This document shows positions 1-63,300 of a stretch of 64,000 bases of DNA, piece by piece. Every line of letters starts with the position of its first letter. The stretch's first letter is position 1. The stretch lies in NCBI GenBank assembly GCA_011033025.1, contig WFMF01000295.1:158455-222454 (forward strand). The letters are read 5' to 3'. A program made the position numbers and the translations under genes. The notes below the pieces were generated by a model. That model was not told where the DNA came from. It saw only the letters and a list, made by a program, of their open reading frames with translations, and ran no database searches. The stretch is from Beroe forskalii (taxonomy: Eukaryota; Ctenophora; Nuda; Beroida; Beroidae).

Positions 1-36
1 ACAATTTTCACACAGGTTTAAGGTTGTGGAATCATC

Positions 37-2025
37 ATGACATCAGTAGCTCTCATCACGGGAATAACGGGACAAGATGGCTCCTACCTCCTCGATTTCC
101 TCCTGGAGAAAGGTTACTATGTTCATGGCATGACCCGAAGAGTCTCCAGTATCAATACTAAGCGAATTGACCACGTGTTTGGGCATGAGAGACTGAGTCT
201 GCACTTTGGTGATCTGAGTGATACAGTATCCATGGTGGGGATACTTCACCACATTCAGGAGAAGTATGATGATCTAAAAATACTGGAGGTGTACAACCTG
301 GGCGCTCAGTCTCATGTCAAAGTCTCGTTTGAAGTTCCTGAGTTTACTGCCAATGTTAGTGGGTTGGGCACCCTTAGGATGCTGGAATCAATCAGGATGT
401 GTGGACTGAAAAACAAGACAAGATTCTACCAAGCCTCTACATCGGAGATCTATGGACTGGTACAGGAAACTCCTCAAACTGAAACTACACCTTTCTACCC
501 CAGATCTCCGTATGGGGCTGCCAAGCTCTATGCTCACTGGATTACTAAGAACTACCGAGAGTCCTATGGCATCCATGCCTCCAATGGCATTCTGTTTAAC
601 CACGAGTCCCCACGACGAGGAGAGACCTTTGTGACAAGGAAAATCACAAGAGCAATAGCTGCCATCTCAAAGGGTACACAAGATTTTCTGGTGCTGGGCA
701 ACCTGGATTCCCTTCGTGACTGGGGTGATGCTAGGGACTATGTCAGAGCCATGTGGATGATGCTTCAAAGAGAGGAGCCAGATGATTATGTCATTGCTAC
801 AGGAAAACAGTACAGTGTTCGTAACTTTGTGGAGAGGTGCTGCTCTGCCATGGGCTGGACTATCCGGTGGGAGGGAGAAGGAGTGGAAGAGGTTGGGATA
901 AGAGAGGAAACTGGTAAAGTGATAGTGAAAGTGTCTCCAAGGTACTTCAGGCCTGCTGAAGTTGATACCCTGCTTGGAGACCCAACCAAAGCCAAGAAAA
1001 CGTTCGGGTGGGAACCAGAATACACTCTTGATGATACAATCCATGACATGCTTGTCTCTGATGGGGCACTTGTAGCAAGTCCATCCAAAGTCTCTGAACG
1101 TAAAGGAATCAGGGTTCTGGTTACAGGTGGTTCTGGTTTAGTTGGAAATGCCATTAAATCCCTCCACCCAGAGTGGTATTATCCAACATCCAAAGAATGC
1201 AATCTTCTGGATGAAGAGTCTGTCTTTAGACTATTCAAAGAACTTAGACCAACACATGTCTTACACTTAGCAGCAAAAGTAGGGGGATTGTACAAAAATA
1301 TGAGGGAACCAGTGGAAATGCTTGAAGAAAATGTGATGATGAACACCAACATCATTAGGGCATGTCACAAGTTTGAAACCAAGCAGCTAGTCATGTGCCT
1401 GTCAACATGCATCTTCCCAGATGGTCTGGTGCCATTTACTGAAGCTGACCTTCACAGTGGTCCACCTCATGATAGCAACTTTGCTTATGCATATGGGAAA
1501 CGTATGGCTGAGATACAAGCTCGAGCTTACAGACAGAAGTACAACACGAATATCAAGTTCATCATTCCAACCAATATCTATGGAACTCATGATAACTTCA
1601 GTCTTGAGGACTCTCATGTGATTCCAGGACTCATCCACAAAGCTCTGATAGCTAAACAAGCTGGAGAGAAGTCACTCCAGATAATGGGGACAGGGAAACC
1701 TCTCCGCCAGTTCATTTTTGTGGAAGACTTGGCTCAAATAATGTCCATGGTTATGCAGGATGAGGAAGCTCCAGATATGATGATAGCTGCACCCCCAGAT
1801 GGAGAAGTGAGCATCTTGGAGGTCGCCAACAATATTGCTACCTGCATGAACTTGAGCAATGTGAAGTGTGATGAGAGTAAGTCTGATGGACAGTTCAAAA
1901 AGACAGCTGATACCAGCGTACTCCAGCAATATTTGAGTGGAAAAAACTTCAACTGGACCCCTCTTCAAGAAGGAATAAAGAAAGTATGTGACTGGGTCCA
2001 GCATGTAGAACATTTCAGAAAGTAA
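37..2025 (+). CDS. Bifunctional GDP-mannose 4,6-dehydratase / GDP-L-fucose synthase fusion, single exon
   Basis: This 662-residue open frame joins the two cytosolic enzymes that turn GDP-mannose into GDP-L-fucose. Residues 1-340 match GDP-mannose 4,6-dehydratase (GMDS): an N-terminal NADP-binding motif ([14 protein letters not shown]), the active-site STSE at 134-137 with Thr135 and Glu137, and Tyr159-xxx-Lys163 in SPYGAAK. Residues 358-662 match GDP-L-fucose synthase (GFUS/TSTA3, epimerase-reductase): a second Rossmann motif GGSGLVG at 364-370, LSTCIFP with Ser456 and Cys458, Tyr484-xxx-Lys488, and His527 in HVIP. The linker at about 340-357 is short and no stop interrupts it. Both catalytic sets look intact, so I infer a bifunctional enzyme. 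Each half is close to its normal stand-alone length. A pyrimidine-rich TTTTCACACAG ends at base 15, so the exon may begin at a 3' splice site (cis, or trans-spliced leader). AATAAA at 2039-2044 is only 14 bases past the stop. Confidence 0.95.
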
Positions 2026-2038
2026 GAAATTGTATTGA

Positions 2039-2044
2039 AATAAA
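2039..2044 (+). terminator. Poly(A) signal AATAAA of the GMD-GFS fusion gene
   Basis: AATAAA starts 14 bases after the TAA stop at 2023-2025. It implies a very short 3' UTR if used. Confidence 0.55.
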
Positions 2045-10680: not shown

Positions 10681-11909
10681 TTTTCATTTACAGTAATTGT
10701 GAAAAGATACTGAGATCAGATTATGTAGTCTGCTTCCTGGCCCATCTGTTGCAAATTATTAAATTAAGGCATAGCTAGTGAAAGTGGTTAGCAGTAAAAT
10801 TTGGAAAGATGACACATTGGATAATTGATGAACTGGAAGAATGACATCTGTACAGTGGGCAGCTGCATTCACCAGATATTTATGCTGCATTCACAAACCA
10901 GATACTTACCTATGTTTTAACTTTTTAAACATTTTATATTTTTAATATAATTTCCTATTTTAATCATTTTTACTGTAGGATGTTTCATATTGTTTCAGAG
11001 GTTTTTTATCTAACTTAATTCTGATTATTACAAGTACCAAATTTTAGCGTTAATCAATGTAAATCGAGGTTTTCTATATTGGTATCAAGACTGTATAGTA
11101 TATTTTCCTTTTTGGGAACTTTGGGATTTGATTATGTTTCATTACGAGAGAGAGGTTGAAAATTGCCAAAGATTGACTATTATGTACTTTGTGAACGATT
11201 CCTCACAAGCCGTTATCAGTTATTCATAACCATGTATAATAGCAAATATAATAGTAAATAGTGATAGCTCAATAAATCCCATGCTGTCGGGATTTATTGA
11301 TTAACCTCTCGGAAGTACAGTCCAACATGAGGGAAAGTTCTTTTAACATGCAGGATGCCAGCACTCTTATCTACATTTTAATGCAGAGAACCAATTGTGT
11401 TCACTTAGTGTACCTGAGAGAGGTAGAGAGGGATTGCAATAATTTTCATTTTGTGACATCAACGGACAGCAATCTCGACTAGGCTTATACAGAATACATC
11501 CTATTTTGATGTCTTATATACCTCTTGTAGTTGAATTGTTATAGTTTTTTATTATTATAATCTAATTAAGTCATTAAATTGTACTGTGAATACAATGCCG
11601 TACCATGATTTGACTGTAATCAATTATCTTCCACCTTATCACTCAGTGATATCAAACAAAACGTGTCTTCTGATCATACATCGATGCGATTCATTTTGAA
11701 TGACCTATCGTTTCCTCCATTCATATATATTTTTCTTTATTCTATAAGTTCCAATCGTTCTTCTCACAGTGGAAATCCACTTTTGAGAAACGGACGACAC
11801 CTGCAAGTTCATATGTCTGCTTCTGGATCAAAAAGTGGCCGTCCGCTTTTGGGGTTCGAACTTCCTCCAGTATGCATGTTCTAACCCATTTAATACCCCT
11901 AGCTATAGG
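10681..11909. other. Intergenic region between the zinc-finger gene and RAD23
   Basis: AT-rich with no further exon recognised. It contains the AATAAATCCC/GGGATTTATT hairpin at 11271-11300. The frame at 11663-11884 overlaps the region before the RAD23 ATG and shows no conserved features. Confidence 0.5.
11271..11300. terminator. Hairpin carrying an AATAAA on each strand
   Basis: AATAAATCCC, an 8-base loop, then GGGATTTATT form an inverted repeat. AATAAA therefore occurs on both strands. On + it is the best poly(A) signal seen after the zinc-finger gene, though almost 600 bases from the stop. Confidence 0.4.
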
Positions 11910-14628
11910 ATGAAAGTCACGCTCAAAACGCTAAGTAGGGAAACGTTTGAAGTTGAGATCGATGAGAACCTCACGGTGTCAGATCTGAAGAAGAAGGTCG
12001 AGGAGGTGAAGGGGGCTGGATATGTTGCCGAGAACCTCAAACTTATATACGCAGGTGGGTTGTCTTTGATCTTAAAGTAGACACGGGTGATAGAATAGGT
12101 GGGAGGGTCAATTCCCCAACTGTTGGTGGATTTAGAAAATTCAAATGATGATTATAGGGGCCTAATTCCTTAATTTAGAAACCATACCAATCATTTTTTC
12201 GATCCATAATTTGTTCTGATGACTGATTTCTTATTTTTCAATGATGGGGTCAAAATGTTGAAATAGATTTAGAAATTGGGATAAATTTTCATATGCTCGG
12301 AGCCAATTTTGTTCTAATTTCAAAGAAACATCTGCGGATTCTGAGGATTTGTATAAGATTCGTATCAGCTGCCATTGCGCGGCTCAATTAGACTAAAAAC
12401 TGTTAGCATTTAGCATAATTTCTTGTGAAAAGCCAATTTAATTGGTCGAATGCGCGTCACGTACCGCGCGCGCGTAGCCTATTACCGAACGCGCGTTTGT
12501 AGAAATTATGCAAGATGTGGTTATTATCGTGAAAGTCATGTGCTCCGATTTCAACACAAGATGCCGGAAAAGAGACAGCCTCAGATGAATGATCACGCAT
12601 TTTACTCAATGATTTTAACATTATGACGTCGCTGCCTCGATTGTTAACGTCAAATTCTCACCGTTACAGGTAAAATACTGAGCGATGAGAAAACAATAAA
12701 GGAGTACGAAATCAGTGCCTTCATTGTTGTGATGGTGTCTAAGCCCAAGCCACCGACTAACCCTGAGGTAACACACTGCAATTATTAGAAATGTTTATTG
12801 AATCATGCTGTTTTTGATGGATTCATATTTCATTGAATATATTTGTTGGACAAATCGCCATACGGACATTAAACGACCGTTGTGCTGCTCGAACGGGCTC
12901 AGTAGTCCCCAACTATTAAAAAACGAAATTTTGCCACACGGTCTATTTCCCACTCCTCAGTCCTCGTTTGACCATTTCCTCCGATATTTGACCCTACTCC
13001 GCCCCTGAGCAGTCGACATCAGCGGCTGCAGCACCTGCTGCTCCAGCCCCCGCTCCTGCTCCAGTAGCCACCCAGCCACCTGCTGGCACCACACCAACTA
13101 CTCCAGCCACCCCTGCAGAGACCACGACCCCTGCAGCCCCGCCCCCCACCGCCACGCCCACCACCGCCCCCGCCGCCACTGCGGGCAGCGACAGTCTGTT
13201 CGTGTCAGGGCCGCAGTACGATGCTGTCATTGCGGACATGGAGAGCATGGGCTTCGAGAAGGCGGCGGTTAGTACTCTTACATTCATTCCAGTCGAACTG
13301 ACATGATTCTTCATATCATGTCAAGGGTGATGAGCCCTTCATCTCATCACGTCACAAGATCATCCTCCAATTCTTCTGCAGATTCAGAGAGCGATGGAAG
13401 CCAGTTACAACAACCCTCACCGAGCTATTGAGTACCTCTGCAACCCTGGCTCGATGCCCGCTGTCCGGCCTGCCCCACAAGCCACTCCCCCGGCTGCTGC
13501 CCCCGGCGGCGGCACCCCCACTGCCCCTCCCCCCGCTGCGACGCCCCCAGTGGACGTGGTCGCACCGCCTGCCGCCACCCCTCAGGCTGGGGCTGGCAAC
13601 CTGGACTTCCTCCGCAACCACGCGCAGGTAGGACCCCAAATATAGTCGGCCCTCGTCACCTACCGCGGTACATACTGTGTTGCATTTCAAACTGCACGTC
13701 TTTAACTCTTTTTACTCGAAAATTTTGTCCGCCTTGTGCGATAATATCGACGTTTTGAAATTTACTCTGTGTGAATCACACAGAGTAAATCACAGTGTGT
13801 GATTTTTGAATTTTGACGTGATACCAATCCTTTCATGTAATAAACCCCCCATTTCCTGCAGTTCCAGACTCTGAGGACCATGATTGAGAGAGATCCTGGT
13901 ATGCTGCAAAGTGTGCTTCAAGAACTCGGGCAAGCCAACCCAGAACTTCTTCAGGTATAATACAGCAGTTGTAGGAGTTGTATTGTCGTAGTTCTTTATG
14001 TGCGATTTCAATGATCCGACGAAACTCTACGTGATAGAAAAATTTTCAATAGCTGGGACAGTTCTACAGTTTTATTTGCGCGGCGTTAACTGTTAAGATA
14101 TATAATTATAAATATTTAACATGTCTGTACGCCGCGCAAACAAAACTGCAGTTCGAACTGCCACTGTACGCTTCATCCCGTCAATAAATTAAGTACCTTC
14201 CTCTCTATTGAATGAATCCTTCAGGCGATCCAGGAGAACCCGCAGCAGTTCATCAACCTGTTGGGAGAAGGAGGGGGCGGGGGTGCGGAACCCCCCGCAG
14301 CCGGGGGCGCCGCCCCACCTCCCGCCACCACTGTGCACATAACTCCCGAGGAGAAGGCCGCTATTGACAGGGTCAGTGGAGGAATTGCATCAATTTCTGT
14401 GATGCGTAATTTCTTGAATATCATTTAATGTTTGTCACCGAATAGCTTTAAACCATTCTCGTTTTGTTCTTGTGATCTGTCTCTTACAGTTGAATATCGT
14501 TTCAGATAAAGGAGCTCGGATACCCGGAACATCTCTGTATCCAGGCTTACTTTGCGTGCGACAAAAACGAGAACTTAGCAGCAGAGTTCCTATTTTCAGA
14601 GCCGCAAGGCGACGACAACAACTCATAA
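11910..14628 (+). CDS. RAD23: UV excision repair protein RAD23 (ubiquitin/proteasome shuttle), 7 exons
   Basis: Exons 11910-12054, 12670-12767, 13013-13267, 13382-13627, 13862-13954, 14225-14371 and 14506-14628 join in frame with GT-AG borders to 368 residues, close to human RAD23A (363). The order is classical: ubiquitin-like domain ([18 protein letters not shown]...LKLIYAGKIL), a Pro/Ala/Thr linker, UBA1 ([13 protein letters not shown]...RAIEYL), an XPC-binding segment ([20 protein letters not shown]...NPELLQ) and C-terminal UBA2 ([19 protein letters not shown]). Family role: delivers ubiquitinated proteins to the 26S proteasome and stabilises XPC in nucleotide-excision repair. Exons 3, 4 and 6 are very GC-rich compared with their AT-rich introns. 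The Gly-rich loop after INLLGEG is typical. The start is the first ATG that opens the ubiquitin-like fold. Confidence 0.95.
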
Positions 14629-58593: not shown

Positions 58594-60330
58594 TTACAAA
58601 TCCTCTGCCATTTCCCTACAGTCCCATCTATTTGGCATGTTTCCAACCTCCAATCCCTCCCCCTCTAAGTGAACTCCTAGCTGTCCTGCTAGCTGCCTCG
58701 CCTGCTCCAACACATCCTCCGCAATACTTTCACTTCCTACCCTGCTCAGAGCACTTCTACTCACCGGACTGTTTTCCTGGGAGTCCCGCTTCATGGCCCG
58801 CAGCCCCTCCCCCACCCACTCCTCTCCCAACCCCACGTCTCTGAAGAACCTCACGCAGAACTGCTCCGGGTCACGCGTGAGGGACTCGTAGTCGTAGGCC
58901 CGTACGTCACGCCTGTCACGCGCGTGATGCACAAACGTGCACAGGTTGGAGACGTAGTTCAGTACCAGACACGTGTCGTAGGAGTGAGGCGAGGAAATGT
59001 CCCAGGATTCTCGCAGACGGGGGTTATGGATGGGATACAGCTCATTCACTGCGATATGTGGGACGTTTGCCAGGAGAATCCTCTTGAAGGAAGTCACCGC
59101 TGCTCTGACACCGCGGAAAAGGAACACTTCCTTTACTGCGGGAAGACTGGAGTGGATCAGGGGGAATATGTTCATTCCGAAACTAGGGGCTTTTATAAGG
59201 TAACGTTTCTGTGGGTCCCTTGCTAGGAGCAGTAGCGTACTTTTAACCAGCTGAATCAATCTGAAGGGCAGCAGATGATTCAACAAACGATTCAAGAAGA
59301 AATTAGTGATCTGATGCCGGAAGCAACCAGTTTTCGAATTGATCCACCGATGATAAACGAAATAAGAGATGTATATAGCTCACGTTGGAAATGGAAATAA
59401 CAAATTATTATGCAGAACTTGAAACATATTCCGTGCCGTCTTAAAGAACATGTCTGTGTGATTTGCAAGCTCAAAGTCTGGTTGAATTCGATAAAAGTGG
59501 TGTCTCGTGAGGAAAGATTAAATAAAAATCAATCATAAGTAATATGCAATAAGTATGCGATAGTTTATGTAAATGAATTAAGTACCTGAGAGGAATTCAT
59601 TTGGTGCTCGTCGGATAAGAAGACAAGGTCGTATAGAGGCCAGGGGTGTGCTAGCACAGTACACTGACCAGTAGCGTGGATTATGGAAGAGAGCAGGGTG
59701 CCACCACACCGACCTACTGAGTGCAGGTAGATGATATTACTGCCATCTCCCGAGAATAAGGCGCCACTTGCTGCACCTTCAGGAAACAAGGTGCCACTTG
59801 CAGCATCAGCAGACAACTTGGTGCCATCTTTTTGTAGGCCTGGTGCCACCTTTTCTGCGTTTTAGAGAAGCTTTTGCCACTTTCCCTCTTCGCATCTCTA
59901 AGAACCGGTGAACGGCTTGATGGGGCACCCTGAACAACTCCGTAGCAGTCTCATGTTGAGAAGCAAAGGAGAAGGGATGCCGGACTATGTCAGTCAAATC
60001 CAACGGACACCGAACAAAAACGAAATCCTTGGGAGTGACCGAGTGCAGAGTGACAGTTTCCTCTTCTAATATCCTGATATCTCTTATCCCCGTGTAGAGG
60101 AGGGTGTACTTTTCCGGACAGTTCCGCTGTGTTAACCAGGCAGATTTCCACCACCAGATCCTCATTTCCCGCCAGTCACAGAGTATTTTGTAGGAGAAAA
60201 CAGCGTCCTGGTCCGCAAGATCGGCTGCAGAGGGGTGGAAGACTAAATCGAGCAGAAACTGGAGAAACCACGAGATACGTTCGAGTAGGACCATTTTTAG
60301 GATCCTCAAATTGAACAGGAGTGCTTCCAT
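58594..60330 (-). CDS. Sulfotransferase-like protein, 3 exons (460 aa)
   Basis: Exons 60330-59850, 59770-59586 and 59310-58594 join in phase to 460 residues. The N-terminal part (about 1-150, ending DIVRHPFSFASQHETATELF...) precedes IIYLHSVGRCGGTLLSSII, the PAPS 5'-phosphosulfate-binding loop. Next come the acceptor region LAHPWPLYDLVFL, then RYLIKAPSFGMN, VKEVFLFRGV (the usual ...FLYRD strand) and DYESLTRDPE. This layout matches an uncharacterised sulfotransferase family I know from lancelets and corals, in which the loop reads NTGRCGSTLL. The substrate is unknown. The first intron is only 79 bp, with a weak donor (AAAAG|GTGGCA), inside short GCAAGTGGCRCC repeats. It may instead be one contiguous exon with a frameshift. 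Second intron: CAG|GTACTT to GGCATCAG. Confidence 0.8.
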
Positions 60331-63300
60331 CCCAACAATAGTGAAAGATTTTTCGCCTAGAAGCTCGAAAATTATAGCAAAACGTTTAAATTTATTGAAT
60401 GCGGTAAAAGAATCGCTTCACAGCGTTTGAAATCTGAGAAGAAATTTTCAGACTGAGCAGAACGAAAAGACATATTGCAAATGATACTGATAGCCACAAT
60501 CGGGGTTTCACGTGATCTAGAAGTGAGATAATGATATGGATTGATCAGACTGCAGCACTTCTGCACTGTGGTTTGTAGATGAAAATACCGGTCAGTTTTG
60601 AGGAACATCATTAATTAATTTACGTTTTCATAGGAACAATTTTCACTTCCATCGATAGATAAAGTGGAAAGAACTATGTACAACTATACTCGCACCATAA
60701 CAATTTGTTCAGTGAATCAAACAAGCCAAATATGTATTAATAGCATAAATTCAATTAATGTATGTGTTTAAAGGGGTTATTCATAAACTGCTCCGAATTA
60801 ATCTGAGATATCAGAACATTATATCCAGGTCAGCAAAATAAATTTAACAACCTGCTCAGTATTACTTAATGGCCTTGTGTGTTTAGATTAATTGATGATT
60901 TATGGATTAGGCTAAGCAAAGCATATAATTCGAATCATGATGATTGAATATACTTAGAACCGGCGTGCTAAGTGATCAATTTGAGGCGTAACGGGTACTA
61001 AGAATCTGATAGAAAGATACGAGTGTTCGCAGCGGACGAGCTTTCTTTCTTTACGTAACCCCGAGACGAGATCCCTAAGTGGTGGCGGAATTTTTGAAAA
61101 ATGCAAAACTTTCATTCATGGAGTGTAAGTAATGAAAGGGTTAACTCAATGACTTTTGCACTGATGATGATCTGAAGGTACTTCGCATTGAAAAGTCAGC
61201 TCGGTGAATTCGTGTTGTGGAACAGGTCAATTGCAGTGTTTCATAGTTCTTTCATTTTATTTTCATTTTACCTGAAGTTTGATTTAACTTTGATTTAACT
61301 ATGTTTTTGATTTGATTTGTCTTTGATTTGTCTTTGATTTTAACTTGATTCTATTTTCAGTTTGTTTTGAATTAAATTTTGATTTTATTCTGATTTCGAT
61401 TTTTATTAGCACATTTTTAATTTCTATCATAGTGTATAATATTTAATGCAGCTCCTACTTTAACCACGTTTTTTAATTTCATCCTGTAATTTCATCATTG
61501 CCGTGAGGGGTATTTGACAAACCGTATAATGGTCTTGGTGATGTTAAATGGTGCGGTTATTTCAGGAAGTGTTGAGCTGATGCCTCAGATAGTCATTGTG
61601 AAAAAACTTGAAAACATCTGTTGGCCCTAATCACTAATAATTAGGGTTGTTGGTATTCCACGATATCAAGTAACCTATCTAAGAGATATTATCAAAAAAT
61701 AAGTCTCTTGGGTTACTTTATCTCATCGCCAAATAATGCCACTGGTACAAGGTTTTGATGCGAAGTTGAATAGATTATAGCTCATTTCAAAAAATAGCTC
61801 GGGGGTCTATCCTGAAACGGAATGGTCAGAGAACCAACTTAAGTGAAAAACTACTAATTACAAAAATATATGCATTAAAATTTACAGAAAGGACCCAAAT
61901 TGGGCTAGAGCAGGACAACACCCGACAAAGGTACACGCAAAACATGTTGAGAAGTATAAGCTTTTATGAGACCAAACTCAAAGCTTTTAAGAGTTGTTGA
62001 TTCCACTTGTTGACAATTATCATAATTTACCATAGCTTAGTAGGAATGAAAGAGATTACTGCGTTACTTTTCGTTATTTACCTTTATAAAAGGCTGCATC
62101 AGACCATACCTGGCGAGTCCATTAAAATAGAATTTTAACGGCTCGCAGGACAAAAAGAACATATGAGTAATATTTCAGAATATTCAGTGCTTCAGATTTT
62201 ATTGATTTTGTAATTGATGTTGGTAACAAAATGCCCTGAAGTCACGAAATGAGTGAAAGGAAAAAGTAAAGTTGCGGCATCACAATACTCCCCGGGTGTT
62301 ACAATAGATAAATACTTTCTCACTTTGAGGAGCTGTCCATGTAACCAACGAGGCGAAGCCGAGGCAGTTAAACAGCTCTCAAGTGAGACAGAATGAGAAG
62401 ACAGTGAGAAGAGAAGAACAATGCAATTCTTATTCAACGACCTGAAATCCGTGAAATCAATAACTCAATCTCTCAAGTGAGAAGCAAGTAATTCATTATA
62501 ATACTAGGTACCTACTGTGTTCAAATGGATTTTAAGAATTTCAACTCTCAATCGTACGATGGAGATCAGTTAACTCCCTAACCGTATAGTTAAGTAGTAA
62601 CACAGATAGTTATATATTGAATATGAAGCTTCCAGCCAACACGGTCTGGAACAGCTATTTACTATCAGGTTAAAGTGTTACAGAGCTGTGTCGCCACATT
62701 TGAGATCGGTGCCTGAAATTTCCAAAAACTGTCATTTGTACGTGCGTGATACTGATTCAACAGTATATTCACGTGCGTATATGGTCCCGCGCGATCGGAA
62801 ATTTCAGAATGGATATCATTTCTCGAAGTTAGAAAACTTTTAAAAACCCAGAGGAGACTGGCGATGTTCCACATTGTAAGAAACCACTAAGAAAGAATTG
62901 ACAAAGTTCATACTATGTATCATTAGAATTTCCAATGTGGAATATATTCTGGTTAGTAACCATACAAAACTTGATATCTCCCAGAAGAATAGTTATCAAA
63001 AACTTTTTTGGATGAAAGATTTTAAAATAACAAAATTTTCTGTGATTAAATAAATATGTTCTGAGAGCAAATGATTGGAACCGTCATGGTACAAATCTAA
63101 AATATATAAACTCAAACAACGGGACAACATTATTGAAAAAATACAAAATGTACTGGACGTCACTGAATAAGGGCCAAGGGGGATGCTGAGTAAATTTGAG
63201 ACATTTATCCCTGGAGGCTTTTATCAGAGTTATTAAATCCGGACTACCTAAAAAGCACTACCGGTACGGTGTCGCTCCGGAATGAATTCAAGAATTTAGA

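Follow-up and report, generated by a model that had tools for sequence, protein, structure and literature searches.

A putative bifunctional GDP-fucose enzyme in Beroe forskalii, encoded by a single frame that joins GMD and GFUS

The supply of GDP-fucose usually comes from two separate gene products, and the locus described here raises the question whether a single polypeptide of a comb jelly could do the work of both, and from where its two parts came. The window, as we call the whole analysed stretch of 64,000 nucleotides (C353:158455-222454), lies in a Beroe forskalii genome of 216,145,372 bases in 1134 contigs, an assembly from which a second GFUS or a salvage gene may be absent. The original prediction placed a dehydratase and an epimerase-reductase in one frame, and such a frame is indeed present: it runs unbroken over positions 37-2025 of the plus strand (the strand of all features below unless marked otherwise) with 662 codons, an ATG at 37 and a stop at 2023-2025. 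The order of its parts is a GDP-mannose 4,6-dehydratase (GMD) half of residues 1-347 (37..1077), a linker of residues 348-357 (1078..1107), and a human-type GDP-L-fucose synthase (GFUS) half, the epimerase-reductase, of residues 358-662 (1108..2022). We consider it quite probable that this is a working bifunctional GDP-fucose enzyme, made from an intron-free copy of the genome's own GMD and a GFUS sequence. It would then probably supply most or all of the GDP-fucose; expression, both activities, co-assembly and channelling are what we infer in this reading.

Both halves are matched by their families. The GDP-mannose 4,6-dehydratase model TIGR01472 aligns in full length to residues 4-342 with 539.7 bits (cut-off 415), and PF16363 matches the same half with 544.7 bits (cut-off 27). 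Residues 357-655 score 281 bits against chain 4e5y and 128 bits against chain 1bsv, which we take to be the human and the E. coli-type GDP-L-fucose synthase chain, respectively; the bacterial Fcl equivalog NF047922 reaches 198.6 bits, which is below its cut-off of 500 bits, and the fusion is not assignable to it. The eight catalytic residues that had been named for the two halves were all checked and stand as stated, being T135, E137, Y159 and K163 in the GMD half (439..525) and S456, C458, Y484 and K488 in the GFUS half, where the conserved H527 is found as well (1402..1617 for these five). The first four are presumably the catalytic residues of GMD, and S456/Y484/K488 together with the Cys/His pair C458/H527 presumably those of GFUS. 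Chance does not account for two full-length enzyme domains that share one frame and keep their residues. Upstream of the ATG, by 21 bases, ends a candidate splice-acceptor-like sequence, TTTTCACACAG (1..15, ending at base 15), slightly altered versions of which precede two further copies of the gene on the same contig. The gene may therefore have a 5' UTR intron or receive a trans-spliced leader, and the fusion is intronless with respect to its coding part. AATAAA, a candidate poly-A signal, starts 14 bases past the stop (2039..2044).

Scans of the window with Rfam and for tRNAs found nothing. Its other frames with family matches comprise a C2H2 zinc-finger frame, an LDLR-class-A / rhodopsin-type receptor in two frames, and a RINGv protein. 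By eye we further noted Rad23-like exons at 11609-14425 (plus strand) and carbohydrate-sulfotransferase-like frames at 58597-60417 (minus strand), the latter with no Pfam match. Elsewhere in the assembly, C1134:40-1344 (L297) holds a cytochrome oxidase I frame with a fast-changing look in a locus of 20% G+C, where TGA stands for Trp, AGA for Arg and ATA for Ile. This fits mitochondrial code 4, which among animals is used by comb jellies, sponges and cnidarians, and also by many protists; the fast-changing look is a hint of a comb jelly or some other animal of an early branch.

The linker deserves a closer look, as it is here that an error could join what is separate. Its length had been given as about 15 residues and is corrected to about 10, since the alignment of a separate GMD gene on contig C691 (discussed below) ends at residue 347 and the synthase model starts at 358. 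The two further copies lie upstream on contig C353. The more distant one (C353:124174-126380) is situated 34 kb upstream of the fusion and is 84% identical to it over window positions -78 to 2341, the junction included; its coding part shows 60 indels, 44 of them frame-shifting, differences of 13.3, 11.0 and 14.8% at the three codon positions, and, apart from the natural stop, further ones where codons 350, 394, 404 and 620 would be. The other (C353:151555-152828) is partial and is 96.5% identical over window positions -377 to 901; 14 substitutions and 9 indels lie in its coding part. Judging from these patterns, the small indels of both copies may partly be assembly error, and we do not take the broken copies to prove that decay was neutral. 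The stretch from C353:149396 to 158455 also contains recurring local repeats of 0.5-2 kb.

Within the linker of the more distant copy a TAA is aligned to codon 350 (TCC in the fusion) with a 2-base gap beside it. This TAA speaks for an open join that is itself an assembly or base error, by which two neighbouring or two-cistron frames would be read as one; so does the abundance of small indels in both copies, a sign that the contig may be imperfectly polished. Against such an error, the upstream linker otherwise agrees with that of the fusion base by base and holds no intergenic stretch; its TAA falls one codon before the place (codon 351) where the stop of the separate GMD would come; and a synthase that started past the linker would find no methionine until residue 422. 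The fusion in fact holds none between residues 338 and 422, so that the synthase half could not easily start alone, and a later start would lose its first strands. We therefore rate an erroneous join as very improbable. The possibility had already been raised that a base error removed a stop in the linker; the frame is open in the fusion itself, and the TAA of the broken copy keeps this objection alive. From its position near the stop of the separate GMD, that codon may be decay, an error or a trace of the unfused state, and together with the 2-base gap it means that the more distant copy gives no evidence of having been one open frame in the past.

The origin of the GMD half is best read from the separate GMD gene, C691:1087577-1089071, whose three exons are separated by GT-AG introns of 171 and 271 bases and encode 350 residues. 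Over the GMD half of the fusion (306 of 347 residues) the two proteins are 88% identical with no gaps. Both coding introns of the C691 gene, two out of two, are precisely absent from the fusion, as in a retrogene: intron 1 (171 bp, phase 0) would lie at the junction 192..193 and intron 2 (271 bp, phase 2) at 377..378. Synonymous differences between the two are saturated (pS 0.848) at a dN of 0.089, and third-position G+C amounts to 49% in the fusion GMD half versus 70% in the C691 GMD. From the saturated pS and the low dN it follows that the two GMDs have long been apart and that their proteins have been under purifying selection, a reading that covers the GMDs only, the GFUS half being without a close intact relative for such a measurement. 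Inspection of the flanks by eye, with no dedicated search, revealed neither a target-site duplication nor a poly-A tract; with synonymous sites saturated, no such remnant is expected. The identity, the two absent introns and the saturated synonymous sites together indicate that the GMD half is related to the genome's own gene in the manner of a retrocopy, of old date and kept by selection, and is not a recent lateral import. Of the two origins that the original prediction had offered for a single-exon gene, retro-copying thus gains from the clean loss of both introns, while a lateral one is unsupported for the GMD half by its likeness to the spliced gene. The comparison favours copying of the organism's own GMD through RNA over a separate import from bacteria.

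Lateral origin of the GMD half had been a candidate of our own, drawn from bit scores and from the first large tree, in which this half stands near E. coli (91/70); the spliced gene overturned it. The GMD half is 67% identical to E. coli and 59% to human, and the C691 GMD 68% and 58%; the C691 lineage could be fast-evolving or an old replacement. The trees hold 86 rows for GMD and 64 rows for GFUS after thinning of near-copies (32, 41, 34 and 42 chosen rows in the others), and their eukaryotes are two species only, taken from PDB. A clade of the window GMD with human and Naegleria is not rejected by the AU test (p 0.237, 0.126 and 0.084, the last with the C691 gene added). Sixteen sites split human and Naegleria from the E. 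coli-type rows; at 6 of them the window agrees with the eukaryotes and at 8 with the E. coli type.

A different source would be a bacterium or phage that delivered a ready gmd-gfus cassette, which then lost its stop. The place of the GMD half in the first large tree fits such a history, and so does the gmd-then-gfus order, which is common in bacteria and phages. In at least six bacterial places (G001, G017, G120, G232, G369 and G393, of which G001, G232 and G393 were read individually) the gmd and the synthase even share one frame, interrupted between the halves by one or two stops; G001 (C15:4219-6060) is the same place as L073 2026-3897. The search from which these come covered 395 genomes of one bacterial phylum, of which 253 gave a match, with three candidates scored per genome; among the matches listed, none spans both halves without a stop. 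Nor did any of the 250 loci that were fetched, among which several share one contig, hold both domains in one frame (0/250), and five bacterial loci picked for their long frames all contain separate genes (0/5 fused). The suggested search for the same domain order elsewhere therefore returned no second case among these loci and matches. We did not find a report of a natural GMD-GFUS fusion in the open-access literature (PMC); a table of multifunctional proteins includes the GDP-L-fucose synthase of Phytophthora sojae and names no partner there (PMC2705460).

The phage side of the cassette begins with a stretch of the GMD half (253..294) that carries a 7-residue insertion before the E[IV]YNL strand and is common to the C691 gene and five phage contigs (L120, L167, L168, L252 and L254), whose inserts resemble that of the window in make-up. 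The insertion was present in 5 of 232 measured ORFs, from three contigs (six further ORFs were unmeasurable), and in five contigs by pattern; a GFUS of the window type adjoins the GMD in four of the five. We tried the insertion as a sign of kinship with these phages and rejected it: trees built without those columns put the phage group elsewhere, and a clade of the window with the insertion-bearing phages is rejected with a p-AU of 0.025 (0.040 with the C691 gene added). The shared insertion is probably convergent, as far as these alignments tell. Two phage arrangements were seen along the way. Contig L120 (392-3421) shows a row of a PhoH-like frame, a cupin resembling a mannose-phosphate isomerase domain (these two by eye), GMD and a human-type GFUS, while in L071 (3001-4968) an insert of some hundreds of residues, intein-like by eye, splits a GMD after NHE and leaves it in frame.

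The GFUS half is 46% identical to the human enzyme over aligned columns and has the human-type residue at 29 of 53 diagnostic GFUS sites and the bacterial one at 8. It falls within a clade of human, Naegleria and phage sequences (97/89, and 98/93 in a second tree), and the best plasmid-borne bacterial synthases are only about 33-35% alike to it. By sequence, this half matches the eukaryotic (GFUS/TSTA3) type rather than the bacterial Fcl branch; phages also carry human-type GFUS, so the type is no proof of a eukaryotic origin. Of 7 sites that separate human and Naegleria from three phage GFUS, the window sides with the phages at 4 and with the eukaryotes at none, a point in favour of the cassette, and the grouping of the window with the phages has a support of 60/19. 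A clade of the window GFUS with human and Naegleria is not rejected (p-AU 0.482), which counts against the cassette together with the 88% identity between the GMD half and the genome's spliced GMD and the rejected clade with the insertion-bearing phages. We regard a ready-made cassette as improbable, only slightly less so than an error at the join, and retain an origin within the lineage. The separate phylogeny of each half, which had been proposed as a check, thus decided against a joint GMD clade with these phages and allows either a eukaryotic or a phage kinship of the GFUS.

Whether the organism relies on the fusion depends on what else its genome encodes. Searches of the own genome with the GFUS half of the fusion and with a phage GFUS (47% identical) returned only the fusion and pieces of one broken upstream copy. 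The motif STC[IV]FPD occurs at three places, namely the fusion, the upstream copy and a site on C527 with no protein-search support (the reversed pattern occurs at five). The same kind of search recovered the spliced C691 GMD in three pieces. No second intact GFUS was found in the assembly; a gene that is absent from it or cut into very small or many exons could be missed. It had been argued that separate orthologues of both enzymes elsewhere would make the fusion a non-expressed copy; such an orthologue exists for GMD, on C691, and for GFUS no other intact copy was found. The fusion might still be a spare or dying copy, with the true GFUS absent from the assembly or divided too finely for detection. 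The broken copies on the same contig and a genome in 1134 contigs with no completeness figure lend this some weight, whereas the 662 intact codons, a GMD half that keeps 88% of its residues despite saturated synonymous sites, and two protein queries and a motif that show no other intact GFUS speak against it. We hold it to be unlikely, if less so than either the cassette or a faulty join.

PF07959, a family of the salvage pathway, has no match in the own genome, where three frames for GT10 fucosyltransferases are open. According to a passage in PMC12295658, Drosophila and C. elegans are likewise reported to have no salvage pathway. With the only intact GFUS found in the fusion and no match to PF07959, the one family by which the salvage arm was judged, the organism probably draws its GDP-fucose mainly or entirely from this enzyme.

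In the mechanism that we propose, the N-terminal GMD half would convert GDP-mannose to GDP-4-keto-6-deoxymannose, which the tethered C-terminal GFUS half would epimerise and reduce to GDP-L-fucose. Direct passage of the intermediate between the active sites is possible. The gene would have arisen within the lineage when an intron-free copy of its own GMD came to be read in one frame with a GFUS coding sequence. The separate spliced GMD is still there, and its possible mixing with fusion subunits in GMD oligomers would tune the ratio of the two activities. GMDs form oligomers, and the separate GMD is 88% identical to the fused one; mixed assemblies are therefore a reasonable guess by analogy. 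A tetramer is mentioned for a chlorovirus GMD (PMC9614988). Tethering would fix a one-to-one supply of the two activities and may stabilise the dehydratase, as with MUR1 and GER1 in Arabidopsis, where the MUR1 dehydratase complexes with GER1 and is active in yeast only in its presence (PMC11501016, citing Nakayama 2003). The likeness lies in a dehydratase that is physically attached to its epimerase-reductase partner; the attachment is non-covalent in Arabidopsis and covalent in the fusion.

Compared with animal GMDS and GFUS (TSTA3/FX), the fusion has both chemical steps, both families by sequence and the catalytic residues in common. It differs in being one polypeptide from one coding exon, with a GMD half nearer to E. 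coli than to human, where those enzymes are separate; the earlier statement that known animals have separate genes agrees with what is described for Drosophila and C. elegans (PMC12295658) and for Schistosoma (PMC3718619). The bacterial and phage gmd-fcl pairs resemble it in the gmd-first order of many of them and in the occasional shared frame, and depart from it in that the loci examined have separate frames. A natural fusion of two consecutive GDP-fucose steps is found in FKP/FKGP of Bacteroides, Arabidopsis and some brown algae, which is described as a fused fucokinase and GDP-fucose pyrophosphorylase (PMC12732313, PMC3718619, PMC6418280). That enzyme belongs to the salvage arm and is built from other domains, unlike the GMD and GFUS joined here in a genome with no match to PF07959.

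On the present sequence evidence, then, the fusion joins two known enzymes, with a GMD half that is old and selected and with the only intact GFUS found in its genome. It shows clearly how a metabolic gene, copied without its introns, can be taken into a new domain pair while its spliced relative is still present for comparison. As a natural and selected fusion it also offers a means to test whether tethering increases flux or, as the plant complex suggests, does no more than stabilise the dehydratase. A further step would be that this animal lineage has replaced a separate GFUS by the old fusion, so that all its fucosylation would depend on a single polypeptide, which through its GMD half would still mix with the separate GMD; we give this close to an even chance, with the balance just on the side of doubt. 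If true, a two-enzyme pathway that is otherwise loose would be covalently coupled here by nature.
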